Assembly (NCBI GenBank): GCA_026018925.1
Contig: JAKSZU010000009.1
Location: forward strand, 72,016,041 to 72,080,040
DNA: 64,000 nt
Origin: Tupaia tana
Lineage: Eukaryota; Chordata; Mammalia; Scandentia; Tupaiidae
Reading direction: 5' to 3'
Part shown: positions 3,180 to 62,754 of the stretch, piece after piece
How the letters are laid out: every line of letters begins with the position of its first letter
Numbering within the stretch: the first letter of the stretch is position 1
The notes under the pieces: generated by a model
Told to the model about the DNA's origin: nothing
The model's database searches: none
Seen by the model: only the letters and a program-made list of their open reading frames with translations
Position numbers and translations under genes: made by a program

Positions 3180-3945
3180 AAATCAAGAATAATAAGGGAT
3201 GGTGAGGCTGCAGTGAAAAAGGAACCTTCCTACACTGTTGGTGGGAACATAAATTAGTACAAACTTCATGGACAATAATAAAGAATTTCCTCAGAAACCT
3301 TCAAGTGGAACTATCATAGGACCCATTAATTCTACTCTGAAGTATCTACCCAGAGAAGAGGAAAACCCTTAGTCAGAAAAACACTTACACATTCATGTTT
3401 ATTGCAGCATTATTTACAATTATGAGGACATGGAATCAACCCAAATGTACAAAAACAGCTAAGTGGATTGAAAAAAACATGGCACATATTTTTCATGAAC
3501 TACTACTCATCCATAAAAAATTATGAGACCTTGATATTTGATATTCAGTGGACAAATATAGACAGAAGCCAGACTATGAAATACAGGCATTGTATGTCTC
3601 TGCTCAATATATACTGAATGTCTGCATTCCATAGCAGAAACTTAAAGATTGGACGGTATCATAGAAGGGAGGACAACTGTAGATACTAGAGACAGTATAG
3701 GAGGGGGTGTGTTATAGGTGTGGATCATAGGGAGTGGGAAGGAGGAGATCAGGGATAAAACAAAAAACAACTCATTTAATAGACACAAAAATGAAAAGTT
3801 ATCTGCTGGATGATAATGTTTTAATATATGATAATCTCTTCGACTTGACTAATATGCACTGTATTCATGCTGGGATAAAACCATATTTTATACTGTAAAG
3901 ATGTACAGTGATTGAATGTAAATAAAAAATTTTATATATAAGCAA
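3180..3945 (+). mobile_element. Old L1 (copy 1), 3' segment
   Basis: This continues the L1 interrupted at 545. It resumes with the block corresponding to the 'ggtgaaaagggaaccctcc' region of the intact L1, then the ORF2 C-terminus and a 3' UTR ending near 'gtgattgaatgtaaataaaa'. The two halves join without overlap in L1 coordinates, which supports one element split by copy 2. Confidence 0.8.
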
Positions 3946-5993: not shown

Positions 5994-6512
5994 CTTTTTC
6001 TATTAGTTCCATGGAAATCAATATGCTTAAATTTACTATCTTTTCAGGGAGTAGTTACATTTTCAAAAAAAAAGTGGTCTAATTCATCATTTTTAATGTA
6101 TTTGTGTAGAGTTGAGCTAAGTTGTCTCTTGTGATTTTTCATTTCTTCTGCTTCTTAAATTATTTCATTTATTTTGTATATTCAAGGAAAGCAAATAATT
6201 TGGAATTTTTGAAAACATGGAACAATTGAAAAAAATGGAGAAAAAAGCACCTATGGTCTTCCACCTAAAGAAAAGTGTGCCTTATATTTTGGTATGTTTG
6301 TTTCTGTAATTTATGTATACTTTAGAAAGAAAAGGACAGTTGAAGTTTTTTAGGATCTGCAGTTTCATATTTTCCTTTTTTGTATTAGTTGATTAAATCT
6401 TCTTTTAAAATGTCTAAAGTGTAATCAAATTAGTTAACACTTAATGAAAATCAGCATAAATTGATACTACTGGTATAGTTCTCTGACTAACTAGGCCTCT
6501 TTCTTTCTTTCT

Positions 6513-6768
6513 TTTTTTTTTTTTTTGGAGAGGTTTTTGCTATAGGGTGATGTGCTCACCGGAAAGAGAGACAGAGAGACAGAAAACAAGAAATCACCCC
6601 CCATGTGGGATGGCCATGCCACAATCCCTTCTCCTCCATTCTCCTCTCAGGATTTTGGGCACGCACACACACACGCCTGGTGTATTTAAGCCACTGGGTA
6701 CAGGACTCGAACCGTGGTCAACTACATGGGAGTCCAGCCACATAGCCATTACTCTAACTGCTGGTCCC
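6513..6768 (-). mobile_element. tRNA-derived SINE, long type
   Basis: The T-run plus 'ggagaggtttttgctatag' at the low end is the reverse complement of the family 3' end. The high end carries the tRNA-like head ending 'ctaactgctggtccc'. The flanks 'ggcctctttct' and 'ggccctccttct' are similar and may be the TSD. Edges are uncertain by about 10 bases. Confidence 0.87.
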
Positions 6769-6809
6769 GGCCCTCCTTCTAAACTACAGGTTTTCTGCTT
6801 TTGAATTTT

Positions 6810-6980
6810 CACAGATCATCCTCAATGCTGGATTCCCACATGGTTTACTGCAGTTCGAGTCCTGGACCTGGCGACTTGCTTTCTCTCTTTCCCTTTCTCT
6901 CTCTCTGTCTCTCTCTGGCCAAATTAAAAATAATAACAAATGGAACTAAATAAATAATTATTTTAAAAGTAAAAAAAAAT
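6810..6980 (+). mobile_element. tRNA-derived SINE, short type, 5'-truncated
   Basis: Only the second half of the tRNA-like head is seen (B-box-like 'agttcgagtcc' near 6851), followed by a (CT)n stretch and the short-type tail 'ggccaaattaaaaataa' with A-rich repeats. It abuts ORF1-only element copy A. Confidence 0.75.
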
Positions 6981-6984
6981 GAAA

Positions 6985-9808
6985 AAGGGAACAGGCCTTC
7001 TTGAAGAGACACCATCATGGCTCCTGACAACTAGCCATTTTGGGGGAAACAGAGAAATGAAGATTTCCCACTGATAATTCGGCCTCCAGCACACAAAACT
7101 CGCGTGGTAGGAAGACCCCTTTCAGGCCTCCTGTCTCTGTATCTGTCTTTGCCTCTCTCTACCTCTGTCTCTGTCTTCTTTCTTTTTTTAATTTTTGCTT
7201 TTTTAAAATTTTCTAAGGTGAGGCATTTTCTGGTCTTTCTGGCCCCTCCTATCCCTTTATCTTGGTAATAATTCCTTCTTGCCCTCCCAACTCAGGAGAG
7301 GCAAAAGGGAACAGGCTTTCTTAAAGAGACACCTTCATGGCTCCTGCAAACTAGCCATTTTGCACACCACTTGTGCGCTGCATGGTTTTCTAATTTTGGG
7401 GTTTTATTTAAATTTTTTAAAATATTAATTCTTTTTAGTTTTATTTAAAGTTTTTCTCTTCATTTTTTTCTCTTTTTCTCTGTTTCTTGTTTGTTTTTTT
7501 TTTTTTTTTTTGCTGTTTTTGCTGTTGTTTCTCTCTCTCTGTTTCCTTTTCTTCACATTCCTCGATGCTCTAACTGAACTTCCAAGTTTGGGAAGAAACT
7601 GATCACTCACCAGATGAGTAGAAATAGCTGCAGGACCACAAGAAATATGGGAAAGCAGGAAAATACCTCTCCTCCAAAAGAAAAGGGTAATTCCTCTTCA
7701 TCCACACACAGTTCAATAGAAATCATGGAAATGTCTGATAAAGAATTTAGAAAACTCATAATGGCAAAGCTAACAGAGATGGAAGAGAAGAGAGACAAGG
7801 AACTGCAGAAGAGAAAGGAGAAAGGAGTTGATGAGTTCCAGGAGATGAGGAAATTCATGCAAGATCTAAAAGAGGAATTTCACACTTTACTAAAGAATCA
7901 GATGGAACTGTTAGAGATGAAGGCTATAATACAGGAAGTCAAAGTCTCCCTTGAAAGTATTAAAAGCAGACTAGATCACACAGAAAATAGAATCTCAGAT
8001 GTAGAAGAGAAAATTGCTGGCCTAGAAAAATCCACCATGAAGACTGAGAAAATGGCCCAAAAATTTGAGAATAATATACGAGAAATACTAGATACCATCA
8101 AATGTCCAAACATCCGGATAATAGGCATCCCAGAAGGCAAAGAGACTCATAAGGAGCATTGATAATCCATTCCATGAAATCCTGCAAGAAAACTTTCCAA
8201 ACCTACAGAGGCACTCAAAGATCCAGTCCCAAGAAATACAGAGGACCCCAAATAGAATCAACCCAAGAAGACCTTCTCCAAGACACATTATAGCCAGATT
8301 GACCAAAACCACAAAGACAAGATACTAAGATTGGCAAGAGAAAAATGGCAAGTTACCTACAAAGGGTATCCCATCAGACTAAAAGCAGACCTCTCATCGG
8401 AAACAATGCGAGCGAGGAAAGAATGGGAAAATATATTCAAAGTGTTAAAGGAAAAGCAATTTCAACTGAGAATACTGTACCTGGCAAGATTATCCTTCAT
8501 TTGGGAAGAAAAGACACGAACATTCCCAGATAAACAAAACCTGAAAGAATTTACCAGCACCAGACCAGATCTCCAAGAAGTTCTTAAGGGAGTGCTATGT
8601 CAGTAAAATTAAATGCAGACACACAGAAATAAGAGTTCAAAAACTAAGAAAATGGGAAACTTAATTGTAGGGACAAAGTCTGGAGTTGAATATTATATCC
8701 CAGAATTCAATCTGGAAGATCGAACCACAACAGAAGAAAGATTAAGTACATGAGACTGAACTGATGAAACAGCATTCTGTAACTTGACTAAAATATTGCT
8801 GCTTTTCTTCTACGCTTTGTTGTCCAGTTTTAAGGATTTTTGTCCTGTCTTGAGGTGTCAATAGCTTCATGTACCTACTATTTGAACAGAATACTAACCT
8901 GCTTGTAGGCTTTAAGTTTCAAGGAAATATCCTTACCAGTTCAAAACTGCTTTTCTTGAAATTACCAGCTGAACTTGCTACTGAAAGTAGTTAGATTACT
9001 TATGATATTTTGTGATCAACAAAATGTTGGGGTAAAAAGAATTGAAGACAACTGTGAACAGCAGAGATAGTGTAATAAGAGATTGGGAAAAGGTAGAGGG
9101 TCAGACATGGAGTAAAAAACATATATATATAAAAACATATATATACATATATACAAACATATATATATACACACATATATATGAAAGTAGAAATGGAATA
9201 TTATTGATGATAACATGCATGATTAAGCCACTATGCAGTTTATTCTAGATGGGAAACCACATTCAGTATTTTGTGATGATGCTCAGGGAATGAATGTAAA
9301 TTAATTTAAAAAAAAAGTTTCAGGGAAAAAAAATGTGTATTTGATGACTGCAGTAAGCTATATAGCCCCAGCTAGGTACTACTTTAGAGTATGTTCATTC
9401 TACTCACTGAGGTTTATGCCTAGAGTCAGACTTGGGTTCATGTATATGTATATATCAGCTGTGCTTGCTATTGGAAATATTTAGACTAATTAAGTTCATT
9501 AGCAAATCAATTAAATAGGGGGGAAAGGCATAGAAAGCAATCATGGATACCAGAGACAATGTGGGAGGAGGGTGGGACATGGCAGAGGGTGAGGGATAGG
9601 AAATCAAGGATGGCAAAAAAAAAAAAAGCAAAATATGCAAGGCATAAGAAATGGAAAATTATTTGTTGATAACATGTATGTTGATGTACTTGATTAAGCC
9701 AATATACAGTGTAATCTGGATGAAAAATTCATTTTGTATGTTGTAATGATGTACAGTGAATTAATGTAAAAAAATAAATTTAAAGAAAAGGAAAAAAAAA
9801 GAAAAAAA
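6985..9808 (+). mobile_element. ORF1-only L1 derivative (HAL1-like), copy A
   Basis: Layout in order: one 5' monomer ('agacaccatcatggctcc' near 7015) and a partial second one (about 7309); a CT/T-rich leader; a broken ORF1 (7614-8605); then directly a 3' UTR with two similar modules (about 9030-9320 and 9470-9780). No endonuclease or reverse transcriptase sequence lies between ORF1 and the 3' end. The whole plan matches copies B, C and D. Half-L1 (HAL1) elements with only ORF1 are known in mammals; placing this family among them is inference. The A-rich flanks hide any TSD. Confidence 0.82.
7614..8605 (+). pseudogene. L1-type ORF1 of copy A, frameshifted
   Basis: The reading frame starts at an ATG aligned with the ORF1 start of copy C. 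The first 182 codons hold the acidic N-terminus and a long coiled coil, then the frame is lost near 8152, where 'aaggagc' replaces 'aagggc' of copy C (one extra base). The remainder continues in another frame, and its last part is open at 8331-8605 (the C-terminal domain ending in the KGVLCQ stretch). L1 ORF1p is an RNA-binding trimer that coats element RNA. This copy could give only a coiled-coil fragment. Confidence 0.85.
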
Positions 9809-14824: not shown

Positions 14825-14839
14825 CATTAACTGCGTTTT
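14825..14839. repeat. Target-site duplication of copy B, left
   Basis: The 15-bp sequence 'cattaactgcgtttt' is repeated exactly at 17960-17974 and brackets the element between them. This is direct evidence of an L1-type (target-primed) insertion. Confidence 0.95.
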
Positions 14840-15835
14840 TCTTTTTTTTTTATTTGCATTCATTCTCTGAACATCATTACAGCATACAAAATGAGATTTT
14901 CCATCCAAATTACACTATATATTGTCTCAATCAAGCACATCAACAAGCATGTTATTGTCAGCAAATGATCTTCCATTTCTTGTCTTCTGTATGTTTTGCT
15001 TTTTTCCCCCCATCCTAGATTCTCTATCTCTTACCCTCTGCCATCTCCCACTCTCCTCCCACAGTCTCTGGTATCTATGTTTGCTTTCTATACTGTTTTC
15101 TCCTCACATTTTATTGTAACGCCAAAGACCCTAATCAATCCAAATACCCTCATAGCAAACACAGGTGATATCCACATTTCCATGAACACAAGTCTTACTT
15201 TACGCATCCTATAAAGTAGCACCTAGCTGTGGCTACATATCCTACTGCAGTCATTGAATAGATATATATTTTTTTTTCTGAAACTTTTTTTTTTGTAACT
15301 CAATTTACATTCCTTCCCTAAGCTTCATCACAGCATACAAAATGCAATCTCCCATCCAGTACACACTGCATAGTGATACAATCATGAACATTACAAAAAA
15401 AAATTTCCATTACTAGTTCCTAGAATTACTTCCACCCCTCTTTCTGACCCTCTGTCCCTTCCCACCCTCCTCTCACACCACCTCCGGTGTCTACAATTGT
15501 CCTTCATTCCCTTCCCACCCACGTTGCATTGATCACACAATTTCCTACATAATCTAACTACTTTCAATGGTGAGTTCACTCATTACTACTAAGAAAACCA
15601 GTTATAACTTAACTCAAAGAAATGCCAAGGAACTTTGCTTAAAGCCAGGAAACAAGTTAGGATTCTGTTCAAATGGAAGGTGCATGAACCTATCAGTCTC
15701 ATGTACTTTTATCTTCTGTTCTGGTTCAATTTTCCTGATTAAATTCTGGGATATAATATTCAAATTCAGACTTGTCCCTCTGATTAAGTTGGTCACTTTC
15801 ATAGTTTTTGGACTCTTATTTCCGTGTGTCTGTGT

Positions 15836-16837
15836 TTAATTTTCTTGATACAGCACACCCTTGAGAACTTCTTGGAGATCTGGTCTGGTGCTGGTAAATT
15901 CTTTCAGGTTTTGTTTATCTGAGAATGTTCTTGTCTTTTCTTCCCACCTGAAAGATAATCTTGCCGGGTACAGTATTCTTGGCTGAAATTGCTTCTCTCG
16001 TAACACTTTGAATATATTTTCCCATTCTCTCCTCGCTCACATTGTTTCCGATGAGAGATCTGCTGTTAGCCTGATGGGATGTCCTTTGTAGGTAACTTGA
16101 TGTTTCTCTCTTGCCAATCTTAGTATCTTGTCTTTGTCTGCGGTTTTGGTCAACCTGGCTATAATGTGTCTTGGAGAAGATCTTCTTGGGTTGATTCTAT
16201 TTGGGGTCCTTTGTATTTCCTGGGACTGGATCTTCGAATGCCTCTCTAGGTTTGGAAAGTTTTCTTGCAGGATTTCATGGAATAGATTATCAATGCCCTT
16301 ATGGGTCTCTTCACCTTCTGGAATGCCAATTATCCGGATATTTGGACGTTTGATGGTATCCAGTACTTCTCGCATATCATTCTCAAATTTTTGAGCCATT
16401 TTCTCAGTCTTCGTGGTGGACTTTTCTAAGCCAGCCATTTTCTCTTCTACATCTGAGATTCTATTTTCTGAATGATCTAGTCTGCTTTTAATACTTTCAA
16501 GGGAGATTTTGACTTCTTGTATTATAGACTTGATCTCTAGCAGTTCCGTTTGAGTCTTTTGTAAAGTGTGTAATTCCTCTTTTAGATCTTGCAAGAATTT
16601 CCTCATCTCCTGGAACTCAGCAACTTCTTTCTCCTTTCTCTTTAGCAGTTCATTATCTCTCTTTTCTTCCATCTCTGTTAGCTTCGACATTACGAATGCT
16701 CTAAATTCCTTATCAGACATTTCCATGACTTTCACCGAACTGCTTGTGGATGAAGGAGAGTTACTCTTTTCCATTGGAGGAGAGGTATTTTCTCGTTTTC
16801 CCATATTTCTCGTGATCCGACAGTGATTTCTTGTCAT
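15836..16837 (-). pseudogene. L1-type ORF1 of copy B, one premature stop
   Basis: There are 334 codons including the terminal stop, the same length as intact ORF1 in copy C. The frame is open for 266 codons, hits TGA at 16039-16037, then stays open in the same frame to TAA at 15838-15836. Copy C has CGA at this codon (after ACAATG), so the lesion is a single C-to-T change at a CpG. Domains: charged N-terminus (about 1-50), coiled coil (about 50-155), RRM-like domain (about 157-245, with the RPNIRIIGIPEG core), then the C-terminal domain. The truncated product would keep coiled coil and RRM but lose part of the RNA-binding C-terminal domain. Confidence 0.92.
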
Positions 16838-17355
16838 CTGATGAATGGCGTGTTTCTTTCAAATTCTTGAAGTTAAGCCTCAATGTTCAGGAGCAAGCAG
16901 ATAGAGGTGTTCTAGAATCGGATTGCTGTTCTGTAGTGATAACTGGTGAAGCAGATTCAGTAGATATTGGGTGGAGAGACAAGAAAAAGGAAAATGAAAA
17001 AGAGAGAGAGAAACAACAACAAAAAGAGAGAAAAAAGAGAAAAAGAAATAAAAAATTATAATTGCTTTTCTTTTTTTTTTTTAAAGAAAAAAATCACAAA
17101 ATAGAAAATATCTAGTTCCCAGTATCCATGTGGATTCTTCTCAGAGAATGGCTCAACTCTCCTGCCTGGGAGAAAGGAGCAGAAGGGCTTATTAACAAAA
17201 CAAAAGATGGAGCTGAGAGCCAGAGAGAAATTCTACCTTTAAAAAAATCGTAAAAAGGAAAAATTACCAAAAAAAAATGAGGAGACAGGAGCAGAGAGAG
17301 ACAGAGACCTCAGAGACACAGGGACAGGGATAGAAGGCCAGAGGGGCTCCCTACC

Positions 17356-17959
17356 ACACTAGCTTTGCTTGCTGGAGGGTGAATTATGAGTAGAAAATCT
17401 TCATTTCTCCTGTGCCTGAAATATCTAGTTCCCAGTATCCATGTGGATTCTTCTCAGAGAATGGCTCAACTCTCCTGCCACACTAGCTTTGCTTGCTGGA
17501 GGGTGAATTATGAGTAGAAAATCTTCATTTCTCCTGTGCCTGAAATATCTAGTTCCCAGTATCCATGTGGATTCTTCTCAGAGAATGGCTCAACTCTCCT
17601 GCCACACTAGCTTTGCTTGCTGGAGGCTGAATTATGAGTAGAAAATCTTCATTTCTCCTGTGCCTGAAATATCTAGTTCCCAGTATCCATGTGGATTCTT
17701 CTCAGAGAATGGCTCAACTCTCCTGCCACACTAGCTTTGCTTGCTGGAGGCTGAATTATGAGTAGAAAATCTTCATTTCTCCTGTGCCTGAAATATCTAG
17801 TTCCCAGTATCCATGTGGATTCTTCTCAGAGAATGGCTCAACTCTCCTGCCACACTAGCTTTGCTTGCTGGAGGCTGAATTATGAGTAGAAAATCTTCAT
17901 TTCTCCTGTGCCTGAAATATCTAGTTCCCAGTATCCATGTGGATTCTTCTCAGAGAATC
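17356..17959 (-). promoter_or_regulatory. Tandem 124-bp monomer array, 5' end of copy B
   Basis: The word 'gaaatatctagttcccag' recurs at 17418, 17542, 17666, 17790 and 17914, an exact 124-bp period, giving four full units plus partial units at each end. A further partial unit sits at 17105-17178, next to the leader. Copy C has two such units at a 125-bp period, and copies A and D have related, more diverged units. Its location at the very 5' end of an L1 relative parallels the promoter monomers of mouse L1 families. Promoter activity is inferred from position and analogy only. Confidence 0.85.
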
Positions 17960-27676: not shown

Positions 27677-30600
27677 GAAAAAGAAATTCAGAGACGGAGA
27701 TTCCTCATGGCTCCTGAGAACTAGTGATTTCAGGGTAAAAGATAAATGATTTCCTACTGATAATTCAGCCTCCAGCCCACAAACCTGAGTGGCAGAAGAG
27801 ACAAGAGGCAGGTCTTCAGATGAAGATTCCTCATGGCTCCTGAGAACTAGTGATTTCAGGGTAAAAGAGAAATGAAGATTTGCTACTGATAATTCAGCCT
27901 CCAGCCCACAAATCTGAGTGGTAGAAAGTTCCTCTAGCCTTCCTTCTTTCTCTGACTCTGTGTCTCTGTCTCTGTCTCTCTCTGTTTCTCTCTTCTCATT
28001 TTTTTGTAATTTTTCCTTTATAAAATTTTTTAAAGGTGAAGTATTTTTTTTGCTCTTGGCTCTGTCTTTATCTTGTTAATAATCCCCTCTCCCCCTCCCA
28101 CCCAGGCAGGAGAGACAAGGGGCAGGTCTTCAAACAAAGATTCCTCATGGCTCCTGAGAACTAGTGATTTTGCTAGCATGCCATGCACTTTTTTATTTTG
28201 TGCTTTTAAAAGAAAAATGATAATTTTTTCATTTTTTTCCCTCTTCTTTTTCTGTTTCTTTGTTTTTGTCATTGTTGTTTCTCTCTGTTTCCTTTTATTT
28301 CATCTCTCTACTCGTCATCTCCATTTACTGTGTTTCTAGACGGATATATTGGAACTTTAGCCAAACATCCAAATACTATTATGGTTAATATATTCCTCAA
28401 TATCTACTGAATTTGCTGCACAAAGGGATTACAACAGAACAGCAAAGAGATTCTAGATCACCTTTTTCTGCATACACCTGAGCATTCAGATTGAACTTCA
28501 AAAATTAGGAAGAAACTCACCATCCATCAGATGACTGGAAATCACCACAGGACCACAAGAAATATGGGAAAGCAAGAAAATATCTCTCCTCCCAGGGAAA
28601 AGAATAACTCCTCTTCATCCACAGACAGTTCAATAGAAATCATGGAGATGTCTGATAAAGAATTTAGAACATTCATAATGGCGAAGCTAACAGAGATGGA
28701 AGAGAAAAGAGACAATGAACTGCAGAAGAGAAAGAAGAAAGGAGATGACGAGTTCCAGGAGGTGAGGAAATTCTTGCAAGACCTAAAAGAGGGATTACAT
28801 ACCTTAAAAAAGAATCAAAGGGACCTGTTAGAGATGAAGGTTATAATACAGGAAGTCAAAATCTCCCTTGAAAGTATTGAAAGCAGATTATATCATACAG
28901 AAAATAGAATCTCAGACATAGAAGAGAAAATGGCTGACCTAGAAAAATCAACCACGAAGACTGAGAAAATGGCTCCAGAAATATTAGAATAATATACAAG
29001 AAATACTAGATACCATCAAATGTCCAAACACCCAGATAATTGGTATTTCAGAAGGTGAAGAGACTCATAAGGACACTGATAATCTATTCCATGAAATCCT
29101 GCAAGAAAACGTTCCCAAACCTAGAGAGGCACTCAAAGATCCAATCCCAAGAAATACAAAGGACTCCAAATAAAATCAACCCAAAAAGATCTTCTTCAAG
29201 ACACATTATAGCCAGATTGACCAAAACCACAGACAAAGACAAGATACTAAGATTGGTAAGAGAAAAACATCAAGTTACCTACAAAAGGTATCCCGTCAGA
29301 CTAACAGCAGACCTCTCATCGGAAACAATGTGAGTGAGGAAAGATAGGAAAATGTATTCAAAGTGTTAAGGGAAAAGCAATTTCAACCAAGATTACTATA
29401 CCTGGCAAGATTATCCTTCATGTGGGAAGAAAAGATAAGAACATTCTCAAATAAAGAAAACCTGAAAGAATTTACCAGCACCAGACCAGATCTCCAAGAG
29501 GTTCTCAAGGGAGTGCTATTCCAGGAAAATTAAATACAGACACACAGAAATAAGAGTTCAAAAACTAAGAAAATGGACAACTTAATCATAGGGACAAGTC
29601 TGGAGTTTAATATTATATCCCAGAATTCAATTGGGAAAATCAAACCACAACAGAAGATAAAGTACATGAAACGGAATTGGTGAAACAGAGTTTTATGATT
29701 TTTGACTAAAACATTGCTGATTTTCTTGTAGGCTTTGTTGTCTGATTTTAAGGATTTGTGTCTTGTCTTGAGATGTCGATAGGCTCATGTACCTACTGTT
29801 TGAACAGAATCCTAACCTGCTTCCTAGCTTTAAGTTTTAAGCAACTTTCCTTAGGATTTCTTTGATTCAAGTTAAAACTGCTTTCTTGAAATTACCAGCT
29901 GAACTTGCTATTGAAAGTAGATTATTTAAGAAATTGTGTGATCAATACAATGGGGGGAGGGGAGAATGGAAGACTACTGTAGACACCAGTGATAGTATGA
30001 GAAGAGGGTGGGAAAGGACAGAGGACCAGAAATAGGAGTAAAAAAAATTATGTATGTTAGAAATGAAAAATTGTTGATGATAACATGCATGATTAAGCCA
30101 CTATGCAGTATAATGCAGTATATTCTGGATGGGAAATCACATTCTGTATGCTGTGACAATGCTTAGGGAATGAATGTAAATTAAGTTAAAAAAAGTTTCA
30201 GAAAAAAAATAAAACTTTTTGTTTGAATTTAAAAAAGCATTAAAAATACCTATTTGATGACTGCAGTAAGCTATACAGCCTTAGCTAGGTGCTGCTTTAT
30301 AGTATGTTCATTCTACTCACTGAGGTTTATGCCTAAAGTCAGACTTGTGTTCATGGATATGTATATATCAGCTGTGCTTGCAATGGAAAACATTTAGATT
30401 AATTAAGATATCTAATGAAACAATAAAATGTGTGTGTGTGGGGGGTGGGGGTGGGAATGAAGGCATAGAAAGCAACAATAGATACCAGACACAGAGTGGG
30501 AGGAGAGTGGGAGATGGCAGAGGGTGAAAGATAGGGAATCAAGGATGGGAAAAAAAAAGGCAAGATATACAGGAAACAAGAAATGGAAAATTACTTGTTG

Positions 30601-30722
30601 ACAATAACACATATGTTGATGTGCTTGACTGAACCAATATATAGTGTATTCTGGATGGAAAATTCTCATTTTCTATGCTGTAATGATGTACAGTGAATGA
30701 ATGTAAATAAATAAAATAGAAA
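27643..30722 (+). mobile_element. ORF1-only L1 derivative (HAL1-like), copy D
   Basis: After an A-rich junction come two 5' monomers ('agattcctcatggctcctg' at about 27697 and 27823, plus a third partial at about 28139), a CT-rich leader, a broken ORF1 (28531-29531) and the dual-module 3' UTR (about 29945-30190 and 30440-30715), ending in an A-rich tail. It has the same plan as copies B and C but is more diverged, so older. No ORF2. Confidence 0.85.
28531..29531 (+). pseudogene. L1-type ORF1 of copy D, frameshifted
   Basis: The start ATG (MTGNHHRTTRNMGK) aligns with copy C. 153 codons are open through the coiled coil, then the frame breaks at about 28972-28992. The RRM/C-terminal half reappears at about 29085-29333 and ends at a TGA at the same CGA-derived codon as in copy B (after ACAATG). 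A further deletion follows ('aagatagg'). The ORF1 terminal codons 'gaaaattaa' are recognisable at about 29524-29531. Confidence 0.85.
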
Positions 30723-30723
30723 G

Positions 30724-30822
30724 AAAATTCATGCAAAATTTTTTTCATAATACATATTTTGAGAGGTTTTTAGAAAGAAAGAAATAAAATTCATGCAAAA
30801 TTTTTTTCATAATACATATTTT
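30724..30822. repeat. 37-bp direct repeat beside copy D
   Basis: A 37-bp block beginning 'aaaattcatgcaaaattt' and ending 'catatttt' occurs at 30724-30760 and again at 30786-30822, with 25 bases between. It may be a local duplication or an extended TSD in an older element. Confidence 0.85.
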
Positions 30823-47673: not shown

Positions 47674-47950
47674 TTGGGAACCAGCGGTTAGTGTAATAGC
47701 TATGTCGTTGGACTCCCACGTAGTGGAGCGCGGTTCGCGTCTCGGACGCGGTGGCTTAAAACTGACGCCGGGCGCGTGTGCATGCGTGCCCAAGATCCCA
47801 AGAGGAGAATGGAGGAGAAGGGATTGCAGTGTGACCATCCCTGCTGGGGGGTGATTTCTCGCTTTCTGTCTCTATATCTCTCTCTGTCTGTCTGGCGAGC
47901 GCACGCGCCCTTTAGCAAAAACATCTCAAAAAAAAAAAAAAAAAAAACAA
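47674..47950 (+). mobile_element. tRNA-derived SINE, long type, nested, perfect TSD
   Basis: CpG-rich copy. The perfect 16-bp TSD 'agatctttgatccatt' lies at 47658-47673 and 47951-47966, in the ORF2 C-terminal region of the chimeric L1. Confidence 0.95.
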
Positions 47951-48593
47951 AGATCTTTGATCCATTGTGAGTTAATTTTTGTTAAAGGTGAAAGATGGGG
48001 GTTCAGTTTCATCTTTCTGCAGGTGGCTACCCAGTTTTCTCAGCACCATTTCCTAAAGAGGTTTTCCTTTTCCCAATGAACTGACTGGTATCTTATGTCA
48101 AAAACCAGTTGGTTGTGAGAAGATTCCTCATGGATACTGGGAACTAGATATTTCAGGGCACAGGAGAAATGAAGATTTTCTACTCATAATTCAGCCTCCA
48201 GCAAGCAAAGCTAGTGTGGCAGGAGAGTTGAGCCCTTCTCTGAGAAGATTCCTCATGGATACTGGGAACTAGATATTTCAGGGCACAGGAGAAATGAAGA
48301 TTTTCGACTCATAATTCAGCCTCCAGCAAGCAAAGCTAGTGTGGTAGGGAGCCCCTCTGGCCTTCTATCTCTGTCTCTGTGTCTCTGAGGTCTCTGTCTC
48401 TCTCTTTTCCTGTCTCCTCATTTTTTTTTGGTAATTTTTCCTTTTTACGATTTTTTTAAAGGTAGAGTTTCTCTCTGGCTCTAAGCTCCATCTTTTGTTT
48501 TGTTAATAATCCCTTCTGCTCCTTCCTCCCAGGCAGGAGAGTTGAGCCATTCTCTGAGAAGATTCCTCATGGATACTGGGAACTAGATATTTC

Positions 48594-48619
48594 GCGCGGC
48601 GCGCTTGCGCGCCGCACGG
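48594..48619. promoter_or_regulatory. Perfect GC palindrome in copy C leader
   Basis: 'gcggcgcgc' at 48596-48604, then TT, then 'gcgcgccgc' at 48607-48615: a 9-bp perfect inverted repeat made almost only of CpG steps. It lies between the inner monomer and the ORF1 leader. Copy B lacks it (deletion), and copies A and D have decayed versions at about 7356 and 28178. A regulatory role is inference. Confidence 0.6.
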
Positions 48620-48887
48620 TTTTCTATTTTGTGATTTTTTTCTTTAAAAAAAAAAAGAAAAGCAATTATAATTTTTTATTTTTTTGTCTTTTTTCTCTCT
48701 TTTTGTTGTTGCTTCTCTCTCTATTTTTCATTTTCCTTTTTCTTGTCTCTCCACCCAATATCTACTGAATCTGCTGCACCAGCGATCACAACAGAATGGC
48801 AAACAGATTCTAGAACACCTCTGTCTTCTTGCTCCTGAACATTGAGGCTTAACTTCAAGAATTTGAAAGAAACACGCCATTCATCAG

Positions 48888-49889
48888 ATGACAAGAAATC
48901 ACCGTCGGATCACGAGAAATATGGGAAAACGAGAAAATACCTCCCCTCCAATGGAAAAGAGTAACTCTCCTTCATCCACAAGCAGTTCGGTGAAAGTCAT
49001 GGAAATGTCTGATAAGGAATTTAGAACATTCGTAATGTCGAAGCTAACAGAGATGGAAGAAAAGAGAGATAATGAACTGCTAAAGAGAAAGGAGAAAGAA
49101 GTTGCCGAGTTCCAGGAGATGAGGAAATTCTTGCAAGATCTAAAAGAGGAATTACACACTTTACAAAAGACTCAAACGGAACTGCTAGAGATGAAGTCTA
49201 TAATACAAGAAGTCAAAATCTCCCTTGAAAGTATTAAAAGCAGACTAGATCATTCAGAAAATAGAATCTCAGATGTAGAAGAGAAAATCGCTGGCTTAAA
49301 AGAGTCCACCATGAAGACTGAGAAAATGGCTCAAAAATTTGAGAATGATATGCGAGAAGTACTGGATACCATCAAACGTCCAAATATCCGGATAATTGGC
49401 ATTCCAGAAGGTGAAGAGACCCATAAGGGCATTGATAATCTATTCCATGAAATCCTGCAAGAAAACTTTCCAAACCTGGAGAGGCACTCAAAGATTCAGT
49501 CCCAAGAAATACAGAGGACCCCAAATAGAATCAACCCAAGAAGATCTTCTCCAAGACACATTATAGCCAGGTTGACCAAAACCGCAGACAAAGACAAGAT
49601 ACTAAGATTGGCAAGAGAGAAACATCAAGTTACCTACAAAGGACATCCCATCAGGCTAACAGCAGATCTCTCATCGGAAACAATGCGAGCGAGGAGAGAA
49701 TGGGAAAATATATTCAAAGTGTTACGAGAGAAGCAATTTCAGCCAAGAATACTGTACCCAGCAAGATTATCTTTCAGGTGGGAAGAAAAGACAAGAACAT
49801 TCTCAGATAAACAAAACCTGAAAGAATTTACCAGCACCAGACCAGATCTCCAAGAAGTTCTCAAGGGTGTGCTGTATCAAGAAAATTAA
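48888..49889 (+). CDS. L1-type ORF1 protein of copy C, intact, 333 aa
   Basis: The family product is an RNA-binding, nucleic-acid-chaperone protein that trimerises and packages element RNA into a cytoplasmic particle. Visible parts: polar Ser-rich N-terminus (1-40), heptad-rich coiled coil (about 50-155, KLTEMEEKRDNELLKRKEKE onward), RRM-like domain (about 157-245, core RPNIRIIGIPEGEE, then HIIARLTKTADKDKILRLAR), and C-terminal domain (about 246-333, with TYKGHPIRLTADLS and the QPRILYPARLSF block). The length equals a normal mammalian L1 ORF1p (about 320-340). The start ATG is shared with copies A, B and D. The frame runs to TAA with no defect. No ORF2 follows. Whether it is transcribed cannot be seen here. 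Confidence 0.93.
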   Translation: MTRNHRRITRNMGKRENTSPPMEKSNSPSSTSSSVKVMEMSDKEFRTFVMSKLTEMEEKRDNELLKRKEKEVAEFQEMRKFLQDLKEELHTLQKTQTELLEMKSIIQEVKISLESIKSRLDHSENRISDVEEKIAGLKESTMKTEKMAQKFENDMREVLDTIKRPNIRIIGIPEGEETHKGIDNLFHEILQENFPNLERHSKIQSQEIQRTPNRINPRRSSPRHIIARLTKTADKDKILRLAREKHQVTYKGHPIRLTADLSSETMRARREWENIFKVLREKQFQPRILYPARLSFRWEEKTRTFSDKQNLKEFTSTRPDLQEVLKGVLYQEN

Positions 49890-51715
49890 ACACAGACACA
49901 TTGAAATAAGAGTCAAAAAAAACTATGAAAGTGGCCAACTTAATCAGAGGGACAAGTCTGGAGTTGAATATTATATCCCAGAATTTAATCAGGAAAATTG
50001 AACCAGAACAGAAGATAAAAGTACATGAGACTGATAGGTTCATGCACCTTCCATTTGAACAGAATCCTAACTTGTTTCCTGGCTTTAAGCAAAGTTCCTT
50101 GGCATTTCTTTGAGTTAAGTTAAAACTGGTTTTCTTAGTAGTAATGAGTGAACTCACCATTGAAAGTAGTTAGATTATGTAGGAAATTGTGTGATCAATG
50201 CAACGTGGGTGGGAAGGGAATGAAGGACAATTGTAGACACCGGAGGTGGTGTGAGAGGAGGGTGGGAAGGGACAGAGGGTCAGAAAGAGGGGTGGAAGTA
50301 ATTCTAGGAACTAGTAATGGAAAATTTTTTGTAATGTTCATGATTGTATCACTATGCAGTGTGTACTGGATGGGAGATTGCATTTTGTATGCTGTGATGA
50401 AGCTTAGGGAAGGAATGTAAATTGAGTTACAAAAAAAAAAGTTTCAGAAAAAAAATATATATCTATTCAATGACTGCAGTAGGATATGTAGCCACAGCTA
50501 GGTGCTACTTTATAGGATGCGTAAAGTAAGACTTGTGTTCATGGAAATGTGGGTATCACCTGTGTTTGCTATGAGGGTATTTGGATTGATTAGGGTCTTT
50601 GGCGTTACAATAAAATGTGAGGAGAAATCAGTATAGAAAGCAAACATAGATACCAGAGACTGTGGGAGGAGAGTGGGAGATGGCAGAGGATAAGAGATAG
50701 AGAATCTAGGATGGGGGGAAAAAAGCAAAACATACAGAAGACAAGAAATGGAAGATCATTTGCTGACAATAACATGTTTGTTGATGTGCTTGATTGAGAC
50801 AATATATAGTGTAATTTGGATGGAAAATCTCATTTTGCATGCTGTAATGATGTTCAGAGAATGAATGCAAATAAATAAATTGAAAAAAAAATCAGTTGGT
50901 TGTAAGCTTTGGGGTTTCTATTCTATTCCATTGGTCTACCTGTCTTTTTTTCTTTTTTTTTTTTCCAATACTATGCTGTTTTGATAGTCACAGCTTTTTA
51001 GTATATCTTGGAGTTGGGATGATATGCCACCCACTCCACTCTTCCTGGGCAGGATTGCTTTGGCAATATGAGGTCTTTCATGATTCCAGACAAATTCTAT
51101 GATTGTCTTTTCTAGATCTGTGAAGAATATCTCTGGTAGTTTTATTGGAATTGCATTAAATATGTAAATTAATTTGGGTTGAATTGCCATTTTGATTATA
51201 TTAATTCATCCAATCCAGGAACATGGGATATCCTTCCACTTTATTATTTACTTTTCAATATCTTTTTTAAGCTTTTCATAGTTTTCTTTGTAAAACTTTT
51301 TGACTTCCTTAGTTAGGATTATCCCTAGGTATCTTATATATTTTTTGGCTATGGTAAAAGGGATTCCTTTCTTCAGCTCTATTTTGTTCAACTTGTTTAT
51401 ATATAGAAATGCTATAGATTTTCGGATGTTGATTTTTTATTCTGCCACTTCACTGTATTTATTTATTACTTTGAGAAATTTTTCATGGAAACCTTTGAGT
51501 CTTCTATATATAGCATCATGTTATCTGTGAATAAAGATATTTTCAATTTTTCTTTGCCCAGTCATATGCCTTTTATATTGTTCCCTTTTCTGATTGCATT
51601 ATCTAAGACTTCCAGCACTATATTAAAAAGCAGGGCATGCTTGTCGAGTACTAGTTTTTGGTGGAAAAGGTTTTAGCTTTTCCCCATCCCGTATAATGTT
51701 AGCTATAGGGTTTTC

Positions 51716-54736: not shown

Positions 54737-54843
54737 AAAAATCTGGAACACTTCATGAATTTGTGTGTCATCCTTGCACAGGGGCCATGCTATTCTTCTC
54801 TGTATTATTCCAATTTTAGTATATGTGCTGCCAAAGCGACCAC
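54737..54843 (-). ncRNA. RNU6 pseudogene: U6 snRNA retrocopy fused to L1
   Basis: 107 nt on the minus strand matching U6 along its full length, from GTGGTCGCTTTGGCAGC through CATGGCCCCTGTGCAAGG to TTCCAGATTTTT. There are scattered changes, mostly C to T or G to A at former CpGs, and the ACAGAGA box is kept. Its terminal T-run joins directly to L1 ORF1 at 54736 ('gagatgcaagag'). Full-length U6 joined by its 3' end to a 5'-truncated L1 is the known product of template switching by the L1 reverse transcriptase. No external U6 promoter came with it, so it should be silent. Confidence 0.93.
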
Positions 54844-57225: not shown

Positions 57226-57364
57226 AATGTCAAAGTTGAGCATTATTAGCAGTTCCGGGCTCCAGGCGGACTGAGGCTGCAGGCCCGACCCTTCTGAATC
57301 TCCACGCATCCCCACCGTTTCTCCTCCTTGGACCCCAGTTAGGAAGAAACATATAGATTACCTG

Positions 57365-58333
57365 ATGACTAGGAACAATCGCAGAGGCTCAAGAAATATG
57401 AGCAACCAAGAAAAGGCCTCTCCCCCAAGGGAAATCATCGAGCCTACACCACCCACAGTCAATACAATGGACGTCATGGACATGTCTGATAAGGAATTCA
57501 GATTATTTGTAGTGACCAAACTAACTGAGATGGAAGAGAAAAGAGACAAGGAGCTCCAGGAGATGAGGAAGTCCTTCAATGACTTGAAAGAAGAAATGGA
57601 TACCTTAAACAAGAACCAGATGGAACTTTTAGGATTGAAGAATGTGATACAGGAAATCAAAACCTCCCTTGAAAGTATTAAAAGTAGGTTAGACCAGGCA
57701 GAAGATCGAATCTCCAATGTAGAAGACAAAACATCTGACCTAGAGAAAAGTATCAAGAAGATTGAGAAAACAACCATGAAAAATGAGGATAATATATGAG
57801 GAATACTGGATACTATTAAGCGTCCCAACATCCGGATAATTGGTATTCCAGAAGAGGAAGAAAATAATAAGGGCCTAGATAATTTATTCCATGAGATCCT
57901 GGAAGAAAACTTTCCAAATCTAGAAAGGCATTCAAGTATCCAGACCCAGGAAATACATAGGACCCCGGGTAGAATCAACCCAAGAAGATCTTCTCCAAGG
58001 CACATTATAGCCAGACTGGCAAAAACAACAGATAAAGATAAGATACTAAAGTTGGCAAGAGGAAAACATCAGGTTACTTACAAAGGTCACCCCATCAGGC
58101 TAACATTGGATCTCTCGGCCGAAACAATGCAGGAAAGGAAAGAATGGGGAAGCATAGTAAAAGTGTTGAGTGAAAAACAATTTCAACCAAGAATACTATA
58201 CCCGGCAAAATTATCTTTCATATGGGAAAAAAAGATAAAAACATTCTCGAATAAACAAAATTTGAAGGAATTTACCAACTCCAGACCAGCTCTTCAAGAG
58301 GTTCTGAAGGGAGTATTATACCAGGAAAGCTAA
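57365..58333 (+). pseudogene. L1 ORF1, single premature stop
   Basis: 322 codons plus stop. The frame is open except for TGA at 57797-57799 (codon 145), where other copies have CGA (MRE in ORF1-only copy C), so one C-to-T change at a CpG. Domains as in other L1 ORF1p: N-terminus, coiled coil up to about residue 145, RRM core RPNIRIIGIPEEEE, and C-terminal domain with TYKGHPIRLTLDLS. It differs from the ORF1 of the ORF1-only family in the N-terminal third (for example EIIEPTPPTVNTMDVMDMSD, and a shorter coiled coil), so the two families are separate lineages. Confidence 0.93.
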
Positions 58334-58376
58334 AAAATCAGAGACAGTTATACGAGAACAAAAAGCAACCAAGAAA

Positions 58377-61300
58377 ATGGCTCACTTAATGATAGGATCA
58401 GGTACGGAAATATCGATAATTACATTGAATGTCAATGGATTAAATTCTCCAGTAAAGAGACATAGACTGGCTGAATGGATAAGAAAACAGAAACCCTCTA
58501 TCTGTTGCCTACAAGAAACTCACCTTATGGATAAAGACATACATAGACTAACAGTCAAGGGCTGGAAAAAGATACTCCATGCAAATGGAAATCAAAAAAA
58601 GGCTGGAGTAGCGATATTGATCTCAGACAAAATAGATTTCAAGACAAAGACTGTAAGAAGAGACAAAGAAGGGCATTATATAATAGTAAGTGGGGTAATC
58701 CAGCAAGAAGACATAACCCTTATAAATATCTACGCACCCAACTCAGGTGCACCTAAATATGTGAAGGAAAGACTGCTGGAGCTAAAAGGAGAGATAAGGA
58801 GAAATACTATAATTGTTGGAGATCTCAACACCCCATTATCTCCTATAGACAGATCTTCTAGACAGAAAATAAATAGAGAGATACAGGACTTAAATGATAC
58901 TATAAATGGAATGGGCTTGACAGATATCTATAGAACTTTCCACCCTACATCCACAACATATACATTTTTCTCACCCCGACATGGAACCTTTTCAAAGATA
59001 GATCATATATTAGGACACAAATCAAGCCTTTATAGATTCAAAGGCATAGAAACTGTACCCAGTATCTTCTCTGACCATGATGGAATTAAACTCAAGATTA
59101 ACTTCAAGACACAACCCCGAAGATACACGAACACATGGAGACTGAACAACCTACTTCTGAATGACTTCTTCACTACTGAAGAAATTAAGGCTGAAATAAA
59201 AAAATTTATGGAAACTAATGATAATGAGTGCACAAGTGTCCAGAATCTATGGGACACAGCAAAGGCAGTCTTAAGAGGGAAATTCATAGCAATTAGTGCG
59301 CATAAGAAAAGGATAGAAAGATGGCAAGTAGATAACTTATCATCGTGCCTCAGAGAATTGGTAAAACAACAACAAACAAACCCCCAAAATGCCAGGCAAA
59401 AAGAAATAATAAAGGTTTGAGCAGAAATAAATGAAATAGAAAATAAACGAACCATACAGAAAATAAATGAAAGCAAAAGCTGGTTCTTTGAAAAGATTAA
59501 CAAGATCGACACACCATTGGCTAGACTGATTAAGAAGAATAAAGAAAGAAACCAGATTAATCAAATATGTGATGAAACAGGCAATATTACCACAGACATA
59601 GCAGAAATACAAAATATCATTAGAGGATACTATGAGCGACTTTACGTCAACAAACAAGATAACCTGGAGGAGATGGATAAATTCCTGGATGCACATAATC
59701 TACCAAGGTTGGATCAGGAAGACATAGAGAACATGAATAGACCCATAACAAGCCAGGAGATTGAATCAGTAATAAATAACCTCCCAACAAAGAAAAGCCC
59801 AGGCCCAGATGGCTTCACTTGTGAATTCTACAAAACTTTTAAGGAAGAGTTAACCCCTATCCTACTAAAATTATTTCTAAAGATTCAAAAAGGAGGAAAC
59901 CTTCCAAATTCATTTTATGAAGCCTCCATCATCCTCATCCCCAAAACAGATAAAGATATGACAAAAAAGGAAAACTACAGACCAATATCATTGATGAATA
60001 TAGATGCGAAAATTCTCAACAAGATACTCGCAAATCGTATCCAACAACATATAACAAAGATCATTCATCACGATCAGGTAAGCTTTATACCAGAGATGCA
60101 AGGGTGGTTTAATATACGCAAGACCATAAATGTAATACACCACATTAACAGAAAGAAAGATAAAAACCATATGATCATCTCAATTGATGCGGAGAAAGCA
60201 TTTGATAAAATACAACATCCTTTTATGATTAAGACTCTCAGTAAGATTGGTATAGAAGGGTCATTTCTGAACACAATAAAAGCAATCTATGAAAAACCTA
60301 CAGCTAACATTATACTGAATGGGGAAAAGCTGAAAGCTTTTCCTCTGAAAACAGGTACTAGGCAAGGCTGCCCACTTTCTCCACTGCTCTTTAATATAGT
60401 ATTGGAAGTCTTAGCTATTGCAATCAGAGAAGAGAATAATATTAAAGGCATTCGAATAGGCAAAGAAGAATTGAAAATATCTTTATTTGCAGATGACATG
60501 ATGGTGTACTTAGAAGACCCAAAGGTATCCATGAAAAAACTGCTTGAAGTAATAAGTGAATACAGTAAGGTGGCAGGATACAAAATCAATATCCAAAAAT
60601 CTATAGCATTTCTATTTATGAACAACAAGTTGAATGAAGCAGAGCTGAAGAAAGGAATCCCTTTCACCATAGCCACAAGGTGTATAAGATAACTAGGGAT
60701 ACACCTAACTAAGAAAGTCAAAGACCTTTATAAAGAAAACTATGAAAATCTTAAAAGAGACATTGAAAATGACATAAAAATGTGGAAGGACATCCCATGC
60801 TCCTGGGTTGGAAGAATTAACATAATCAAAATGGCAATTCTACCCAAATTAATCTACATGTTTAATGCAATTCCAATCAAAATACCAGAGATATTCTTCA
60901 GAGATCTAGAAAAGGCAATCATAGAATTTGTCTGGAACCATAAAAGACCCCATATTGCAAAAGCAATCCTGCGCAAGAAGAATGGAGTAGGAGGCATATC
61001 ACTCCCTGATCCCAAGATATACTATAAAGCTGCGGTCATCAAAACAGCATGGTATTGGCATAAAAACAGACAAGTGGACCAATGGAAGAGAATAGAGACC
61101 CCAGAAATAACCCCCAAAGCTTACAGCCAACTGATCTTTGACAAAGGATATCAGTCAATCCATTGGGAAAAGGAAAACATCTTTAGTAAATGGTGCTGGA
61201 AAAACTGGGTATCCACCTGCAGAAAGATGAAACTGAACCCCCATCTTTCACCATTAACAACAGTCAACTCAAAATGGATCAGAGATCTGAACCTAAGACC

Positions 61301-62277
61301 TCAAACAATAAAACTACTGGTGGAAAATGCTGGGGAAACTCTGGGCGACATTGGAGTAGGCAAAGACTTCTTAAATAAGACTCCCAAAGCACAGGCAATA
61401 ATCCCTAAAATAGACAAGTGGGACTATATTAGACTAAGAAGTTTCTGCACAGCAAAGGACACAGTAACAAGTGTGAACTGACAACCCTCAGAATGGGAAA
61501 ATATTTTTGTTAAATATGCTTCAGACAAGGGACTGATAACCAGAATACATAGGGAACTCAAGTGCCTTATGCAAAAAAAAAATGATGAACCCAATTAAAA
61601 GATGGGAAAATGAGCTGAATAAAAGTCTCTCTAAGGAAGACATACGAACAGCCAAAAAGCATATGAGAAAATGCTCAACATCCCTCATCATAAGGGAGAT
61701 GCAGATAAAAACTACAATGAGATACCACCTAACCCCTGTCAGAATGGCAAAGATTAAGAATATAAAAAGTGATAAGTGTTGGCGGGGATGTGGTGAAAAG
61801 GGAACCCTCCTACACTGTTGGTGGGAATGTAAACTAGTTCAACCACTGTGGAGAACAATATGGAGGTTCCTCAAAGATCTACAAATAGAACTACCATTTG
61901 ATCCAGCAATCCCACTTCTGGGTATTTACCCAAAAGACAGGAGAACGCTCAGTCAGAAAAGTGCTTGCACATCAATGTTTATTGCAGCATTATTCACAAT
62001 TGCCAAGACATGGAACCAACCTAAATGTCCACAAACTGATGAATGGATTGGAAAAGTGTGGTATATATACTCTATGGAATACTACTCAGCCATAAAAAAT
62101 AACAAGACCCTGGAATTTGATAGAAAGTGGTCAGATACAGAGGATATATTGCTGAGTGAAGTAAGCCAGGCTATGAAAGAAAGATATTGTATGTATCCAC
62201 TCAATATATACCGACTATCAGCACTCTATAATAGAGAGCAAAAAATTGGAGGACATAAAAGCAGTGAAGGTACTTAA
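58377..62277 (+). pseudogene. L1 ORF2 (endonuclease-reverse transcriptase), four lesions
   Basis: The endonuclease (about 58395-59100) shows [16 protein letters not shown], the VGDLNTPLS block and [10 protein letters not shown], i.e. the expected Asn, Glu, Asp and His active-site positions. RT (about 59750-60700) shows [19 protein letters not shown] and the catalytic FADD at 60486-60497. The C-terminal Cys-rich motif (CWRGCG...LLHCWWEC) is at about 61780-61840. Lesions: TGA at 59418-59420 (former Arg), TAA at 60690-60692 (Tyr to stop), TGA at 61479-61481 (former Arg), and a frameshift in the A-run 61573-61582, after which the other frame is open to 62277. The catalytic residues survive, but no full protein can be made. 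Confidence 0.93.
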
Positions 62278-62754
62278 CGAGAATAGGACAGTGTGGAATG
62301 GGGGAAGTGAAGAGAAGAGAATAGAGAAAGATAACAAGTGAACAATAGAGAGGCAGGACATTAGTGAGAAAGAGATATGGCTTATTAACTGTTGATGTTG
62401 ACATGTATAGTATTCTCAACTGGATTTGTCTGAGAAGTATTTCATGATGGGCAAAGTATTTGTACAAGCAAAATGAAAAATAGCAATTGACTGTTTTAAA
62501 AAATAATTATAATAATAATAATAATGATTGGGGAAAACATAGAAAAGATATTGAATGTTAAAGTGGGGAGATTAATGTCTCTGTACTGACTGACATGCAT
62601 GGCATTCCCTTTTGAAAAAGCAATGTAATACACTATAAAGTTATATGTAATTCAATGTAATATAATAGAAGAACATGATGATAATAAAAAATTTAAAAAA
62701 AAAGAAAAAAAAAGATTAAAGACTCAAAAAAAAAAAAAAAAGCTGAGCATTATT

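Follow-up and report, generated by a model that had tools for sequence, protein, structure and literature searches.

Why a non-autonomous retrotransposon should retain ORF1 bears on the open question of cis preference, and a 64,000 nt stretch of the genome of the treeshrew Tupaia tana (contig JAKSZU010000009.1, positions 72,016,041 to 72,080,040; "the window" below, numbered from its first base) raises it in a concrete form. On the plus strand at 48117–50891 lies a complete element, copy C, which has an intact L1-type ORF1 and no ORF2 and is nested in an older minus-strand L1 (L1b). Elements of this kind are known as half-L1s, or HAL1s; in the excerpts of the literature on which we draw here and below, they are ORF1-only L1 derivatives with several origins in mammals (PMC5753468) that depend on the L1 reverse transcriptase and endonuclease (PMC5322556), and ORF1 protein (ORF1p) is reported to be dispensable for trans-mobilisation (PMC5322556). 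We think it very likely that copy C represents a treeshrew HAL1 family that was derived from L1, whose ORF1p has been under selection, which uses ORF2 protein (ORF2p) supplied in trans, and which expanded in a recent burst.

Structure of the ORF1-only copies and their derivation from L1

Copy C is flanked by AAAAACCAGTTGGTTGTGAG and AAAAATCAGTTGGTTGTAAG, a near-identical target-site duplication of 20 nt with two mismatches. It begins with 1.9 copies of a monomer with a period of about 125 bp (124–125 bp; 48117–48348, plus strand like all parts of C), and self-matches of the window place the end of a third, partial monomer near 48589. A 30-base CpG-rich palindrome (48590–48619), with the loop TT in C, lies between the last monomer and ORF1, and is followed by a T-rich 5′ untranslated region (UTR). 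ORF1 itself (48888–49889) runs for 333 codons without a stop, as an earlier sequence-only reading of this DNA had noted, and encodes an RRM-like RNA-binding domain (RBD) and a dsRBD-like C-terminal domain. It matches the Pfam L1 RBD and dsRBD models (PF02994 and PF17490) and aligns with human ORF1p over residues 114–332 (2ykp, E=9e-66), a match through which its coiled-coil part was also assigned; of 49 residues invariant across 11 other ORF1 proteins (our selection from 120 listed), it retains 47.

Downstream of ORF1 are a remnant of an ORF2 start (49931–49990), whose ATG has become GTG in C, and two 3′ UTR modules. Module 1 occupies 50100–50438, and module 2 (50470–50891), which has an A-rich end, is akin to it and, at a greater remove, to the 3′ end of an older L1 in the window, L1a (3590–3945). 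The dual-module 3′ UTR that had been described for the whole family is borne out in C, where the two modules align with a score of 515 (shuffle maximum 312) and are 70% identical across 121 bases in the window self-match, but not in copy D, where the stretches taken as modules score 221, within the shuffle maximum of 247. Three of the four comparisons of the C and D modules with the L1a 3′ UTR are above shuffles (the exception is D module 1), and of eight comparisons with the L1b and L1c 3′ UTRs, seven fall inside shuffle noise; the remaining one, D module 2 against L1b (376, shuffle maximum 308), may reflect a distant kinship.

Three further copies were said to share one plan with C, and A (6993–9789, plus strand), B (14837–17959, minus strand) and D (27698–30738, plus strand) do align with it over most of its length and carry no ORF2. 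A and D are older and have frameshifted ORF1s. Copy B, with 4.9 monomers, is 96% identical to C, in keeping with the long near-identical stretches already remarked upon, and their ORF1s differ at 17 of 1002 bases; its only ORF1 stop, at codon 267 where C reads CGA, is indeed of the CpG type. About 100 bases of the spacer found in A, D and E are missing from B and C, which therefore form a derived subfamily. Copy E (21794 to about 20140, minus strand) is the oldest, and its ORF1 is split by a short interspersed element (SINE). It had been thought probably related and is an old member of the HAL1 family, since it shares the remnant of the ORF2 start (about 20 codons, from 20353 downwards) and, by eye, the spacer of A and D.

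The identity of this remnant was decided by an ungapped scan of the window. The best places outside its own copy for the 60 bases from E are two L1 ORF2 starts, which match at 46 and 45 of 60 positions, and the next best, both at 38, are copy C and an unrelated site. For D, the best match outside the family is again an L1 ORF2 start, at 40 against 33 for chance places. When the stretch downstream of ORF1 was aligned to ORF2 by a gapped local method, the result was unconvincing, with seven of eight scores at or below the shuffle maximum and the eighth 3 above it and away from the ORF2 start; the gap penalties used there were judged too mild. The window copies, whether old like E or young like C, have the deletion junction near the ORF2 start in common.

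Longer family members with ORF2 between ORF1 and the same 3′ UTR, which would have spoken against an ORF1-only family, were sought in the 2.95 Gb genome assembly, where the best 40 of 3530 candidates from an ORF1 query and the best 40 of 1431 from a 3′ UTR query were scored. The 40 scored 3′ UTR matches, at 99% identity, are C and 39 others, and none of those 39 has ORF2 between ORF1 and the 3′ UTR. Nor does ORF2 ever sit between a HAL1 ORF1 and a HAL1 3′ UTR in the 20 nearest ORF1 copies, each retrieved with 8 kb of sequence: 16 are continuous from ORF1 through the 3′ end, internal deletions affect L013 and L024, an inversion affects L025, and L014 is interrupted. The L014 3′ UTR breaks off at C position 2066, after which come the 5′ UTR, ORF1 and ORF2 of a similarly oriented L1 that has probably inserted there as a nested element. 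Thus the copies examined show the features of HAL1 (an L1-type ORF1p, absence of ORF2, derivation from L1 and amplification as a family) and do not contain the ORF2, with its endonuclease and reverse transcriptase, of an autonomous L1.

In the ORF1 tree the HAL1 copies and the window L1s form a single clade (eight rows, support 100/100) that excludes the 11 other ORF1 proteins; within it A through E group with P0001, a database protein discussed below (93/89, not a starred node). This tree and the ORF2-start remnant together show that the family derives from the L1 of its own host lineage, ORF2 having been lost. The partner L1 lineage is represented in the window by L1c (57339–62720, plus strand), whose ORF1 and ORF2 are both interrupted and whose 3′ UTR differs from that of HAL1. 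Young L1s are also present elsewhere in the genome: an open frame of at least 1292 residues occurs in 58 of 106 scored reverse-transcriptase matches, and two young L1s, L076 and L077, whose ORF1 (322 aa) and ORF2 (1292 aa) are both open, show 99.0% identity across 6026 columns. The L076 ORF1 is homologous to that of HAL1 (about 74% nucleotide identity), as is its ORF2 start. Unlike HAL1, L076 has two tandem 158 bp monomers (1608–1924) as well as ORF2; BLAST finds no match between those monomers and HAL1, and outside ORF1 and the ORF2 start it finds between C or D and L076 only short low-scoring or antisense A-rich stretches, so that there is no convincing 3′ UTR match. Scans of genome-contig and viral-contig collections yielded no ORF1p relative.

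Purifying selection on ORF1

The intact ORF1 had been taken to imply selection on the protein or its very recent use. Measurement of the ratio of nonsynonymous to synonymous rates (dN/dS, or ω), which had been suggested as a check, supports the selection on the older internal branches of the family: there dN/dS is 0.33, with a likelihood ratio test statistic (LRT) of 25.8 against a ratio of 1. Taken separately, the B/C stem gives ω 0.24 (LRT 19.9), the remaining internal branches of HAL1 0.45 (LRT 5.3) and the B and C tips 0.26 (LRT 6.8), and the tips leading to A, D and E are near neutral (0.78, LRT 1.65). The window copies share their deletion junction, so the changes on internal branches accrued after the element took its ORF1-only form. 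Counts of changes between reconstructed ancestors agree. Between that of B and C and that of A and D there are 30.5 replacement and 32.5 silent changes, a ratio (N/S) of 0.94, and 1200 neutral simulations, run with and without CpG effects, gave a mean N/S of about 3.1 and none below 1.2. ORF1 is also more conserved than the 3′ UTR, with Kimura two-parameter distances between C and A of 0.115 and 0.304, respectively; 5′ UTR divergences were not used, as the alignment there is of low complexity.

The inference from an open frame in the young copies themselves needs correction, as that openness is mostly a matter of youth. Among recent singleton changes, 45 of 74 are replacements where 52–55 are expected (P 0.01–0.04), and stops among the recent changes in young copies are as frequent as expected. 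Such a mild shortage of replacements is what might be seen if these were ordinary young dead copies, SINE-like in that the protein is of no use to the element, with ORF1 open through recency. We consider that account very unlikely, since it does not explain the internal ω of 0.33 and stem ω of 0.24 over deep HAL1 divergence, an N/S below that of all 1200 simulations, or the greater conservation of ORF1 than of the 3′ UTR. The evidence therefore supports an ORF1p held by purifying selection in an ORF1-only lineage, mainly along its older internal branches, and this selection would fit a need for ORF1p in cis.

Recent expansion, probable mobilisation in trans and the flipping palindrome

The family is very young, as had been proposed from the window copies. 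All 40 scored genome matches to the 1001-base query (C included) are 97–100% identical to it, the median ORF1 difference among 20 copies (18 fetched ones plus B and C) is 0.9%, and 37 copies compared over about 900 bases of the ORF1 end and 3′ UTR differ pairwise by a median of 0.67% (L041 and L056 were left out of these distances). A tree of 17 copies, from which L013, L014, L024 and L025 were excluded and in which B was not placed, is star-shaped with a median tip length of 0.61%; it is these low median differences arranged in a star that mark the family as very young. At neutral rates of 2–5 × 10⁻⁹ per site per year, the burst would date to roughly one to three million years ago. Copy C is a median of 1.8% from the 37 youngest copies and so is not among the very youngest. 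ORF1 is open in 16 of the 18 fetched copies in which it is complete, two of the 16 having in-frame deletions (the incomplete L013 and L025 were not counted), and its C-terminal part is open in 33 of 38 members of the 901-base set, C included. One of the fetched loci, L011, holds a second HAL1 copy (6124–8002, minus strand; C positions 943–2773, 98% identical) in the same orientation as the first, about 50 bases upstream of which it ends, so that the two form a head-to-tail pair.

HAL1 copies carry poly(A) ends, and 11 of 20 have target-site duplications of 14–21 nt, which in 10 of the 11 begin with AAA. These insertion hallmarks, together with the intact L1s, suggest that the enzymes of transposition were supplied in trans; an ORF2p supply is at hand because young open-ORF2 L1s share the genome, and HAL1 would thus be mobilised by L1 ORF2p. 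The high identity among copies could in principle also result from segmental duplication of B and C, or of many copies, and the earlier reading had named this as an outcome that would undo its claim for those two. However, B has its own 15 nt target-site duplication and both its duplication and flanks differ from those of C, so the two are separate insertions, and the 11 other duplications are distinct as well. Segmental duplication is refuted for B, C and those 11 copies, and as an account of the spread of the family it is extremely unlikely.

The history that we favor would run as follows. A host-lineage L1 lost ORF2, apparently in a single event, leaving about 20 ORF2-start codons joined to an L1-type 3′ UTR; the remnant and the shared junction are observed in the window copies. 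The tandem 124 bp units suggest that the resulting element has its own monomer promoter. It makes an ORF1p that probably acts in cis, coating the RNA from which it was translated, and a young open-ORF2 L1 would supply endonuclease and reverse transcriptase in trans. Purifying selection, as the dN/dS of the internal branches shows, held the coding frame while the lineage replicated. The recent amplification was a star-like burst, and putative activity at the present day is likely.

Several points weigh against this history. The dN/dS values come from seven sequences, six of which have broken frames (C alone is open). When all tips are treated as one class they give ω 0.69 with an LRT of 4.3 against 1, and because of this the tips are not strictly neutral. 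A stop-free path between the B/C and A/D ancestors arises in 3.5–7.5% of neutral runs and is thus weak evidence when taken alone. The ORF2-start remnant is weak in C, the monophyly of the HAL1 copies has a support of 93/89, and our script recovered no duplication in 9 of the 20 copies, one of which has a mere 8 nt match. Finally, top-scoring copies alone were scored, so a remoter relative bearing ORF2 could exist. This last point would leave room for a different origin, in which the ORF1-only copies are repeated deletion products of an unseen autonomous L1 to which the selection signal belongs, and the distant kinship of the HAL1 3′ UTR with the older L1a 3′ end would suit it. On the other hand, the window copies, E as well as C, have a common junction near the ORF2 start, ORF2 is lacking in all 39 other scored 3′ UTR matches, and the young autonomous L1 that was found has a 158 bp monomer and no convincing 3′ UTR match to HAL1. 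We regard an unseen autonomous parent as quite unlikely, and a selected, trans-mobilised HAL1 lineage remains the preferred explanation.

The palindrome upstream of ORF1 adds a feature of its own. Its center was compared in 40 copies (L009–L028 and L078–L096, with L025 left out, plus B and C of the window), and 19 copies have TT or TTT there and 19 have AA or AAA; the palindrome is missing in B and unreadable in L091. Of these calls, 18 and 17 were made by script and those for L013, L021 and L028 by eye. At least five changes of the loop are required on the weakly resolved 17-copy tree, and L015 and L016, one ORF1 base apart, nevertheless have opposite loops. Inversion of the loop at the hairpin, during reverse transcription or later, would be the simplest account. 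In the autonomous L076 a single arm-like motif occupies the corresponding place, and the exact arm motif was not found in L077. A more ambitious reading, which we advance tentatively and think somewhat more apt to be wrong than right, is that HAL1 and L1 have formed a long-lived and still mobile two-component system since before copy E, in which the flips record strand switching by an L1-type reverse transcriptase. If this were so, a HAL1 with its own promoter and a selected ORF1p would borrow ORF2p alone from L1, and its palindrome center would flip so often during copying that the two orientations are equally frequent in a family about 1% divergent.

Comparison with known HAL1s, and other sequences

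HAL1, HAL1B and HAL1M8 of human and other mammalian genomes are ancient; the treeshrew family, unlike them, is recent, and of the proteins in the comparison, those of its host's L1 are nearest to its ORF1. All three are ORF1-only L1 derivatives, as is the family described here (PMC5753468). The statement of the sequence-only reading that HAL1s are mostly ancient does not agree with the parts of a published table in which four guinea pig families and one marmoset family are less than 1% divergent (PMC3183009). The guinea pig families HAL1-1E, -1G, -1H and -3D_Cpo, with 37–106 copies each in those parts of the table, are young like the treeshrew family (PMC3183009), and so is marmoset HAL1-1C_Cja, with 32 such copies (PMC3183009); both likenesses are of published description, and the guinea pig belongs to another host order. 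The grouping of the window ORF1 with L1 of the treeshrew suggests an origin independent of guinea pig HAL1; C and an L1 ORF1p of marmoset have just 143 of 329 residues in common. No description of a treeshrew HAL1 was found in the literature searched, and Repbase may well contain one. The kind of element is therefore known; what is added here is a further host, a young burst, a test of selection on internal branches and a palindrome whose loop flips.

For guinea pig HAL1, the published excerpt gives 29–44 Myr over which ORF1 remained coding, from which a need for ORF1p in cis was inferred (PMC3627910). The internal-branch dN/dS reported here is an independent result from another order that agrees with it (PMC3627910, in the same excerpt). 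Treeshrews form a mammalian order that provides laboratory models, and in them a young HAL1 whose ORF1 is open and a young L1 whose ORF2 is open would make a natural pair in which to study the need for ORF1p in cis.

P0001, which groups with B and C in the ORF1 tree (100/100), is a 296 aa protein from a 2304 bp contig filed as Streptomyces narbonensis, and 286 of its 296 residues are identical to those of C; it is a probable treeshrew contamination of the bacterial assembly. A full-length copy of U6 snRNA (54737–54843, minus strand; Rfam 103 bits) is joined to the 5′-truncated end of L1b, and the junction looks like a U6/L1 chimera of the template-switching type, a kind described in the portion of the literature cited (PMC4476161). 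The window also contains an abundant SINE of about 275 bp whose 5′ part is tRNA-like by eye. It occupies 24 places of at least 120 bp, such as 47675–47950, to which the other copies are 63–90% identical, and ARAGORN finds no tRNA gene in the window. The assembly gave 21 matches to cytochrome b. One of them, on contig C1198, reads through 379 codons without a stop under the vertebrate mitochondrial code, and its 30 best matches, out of at least 120 listed, all belong to Tupaia (97–98% identity to T. montana, 98% to T. tana, 94–96% to T. belangeri and T. chinensis), which places the host in that genus; the remaining 20, including the top match by score (C220:64715621–64716178, 247.7 bits), look like nuclear mitochondrial copies.

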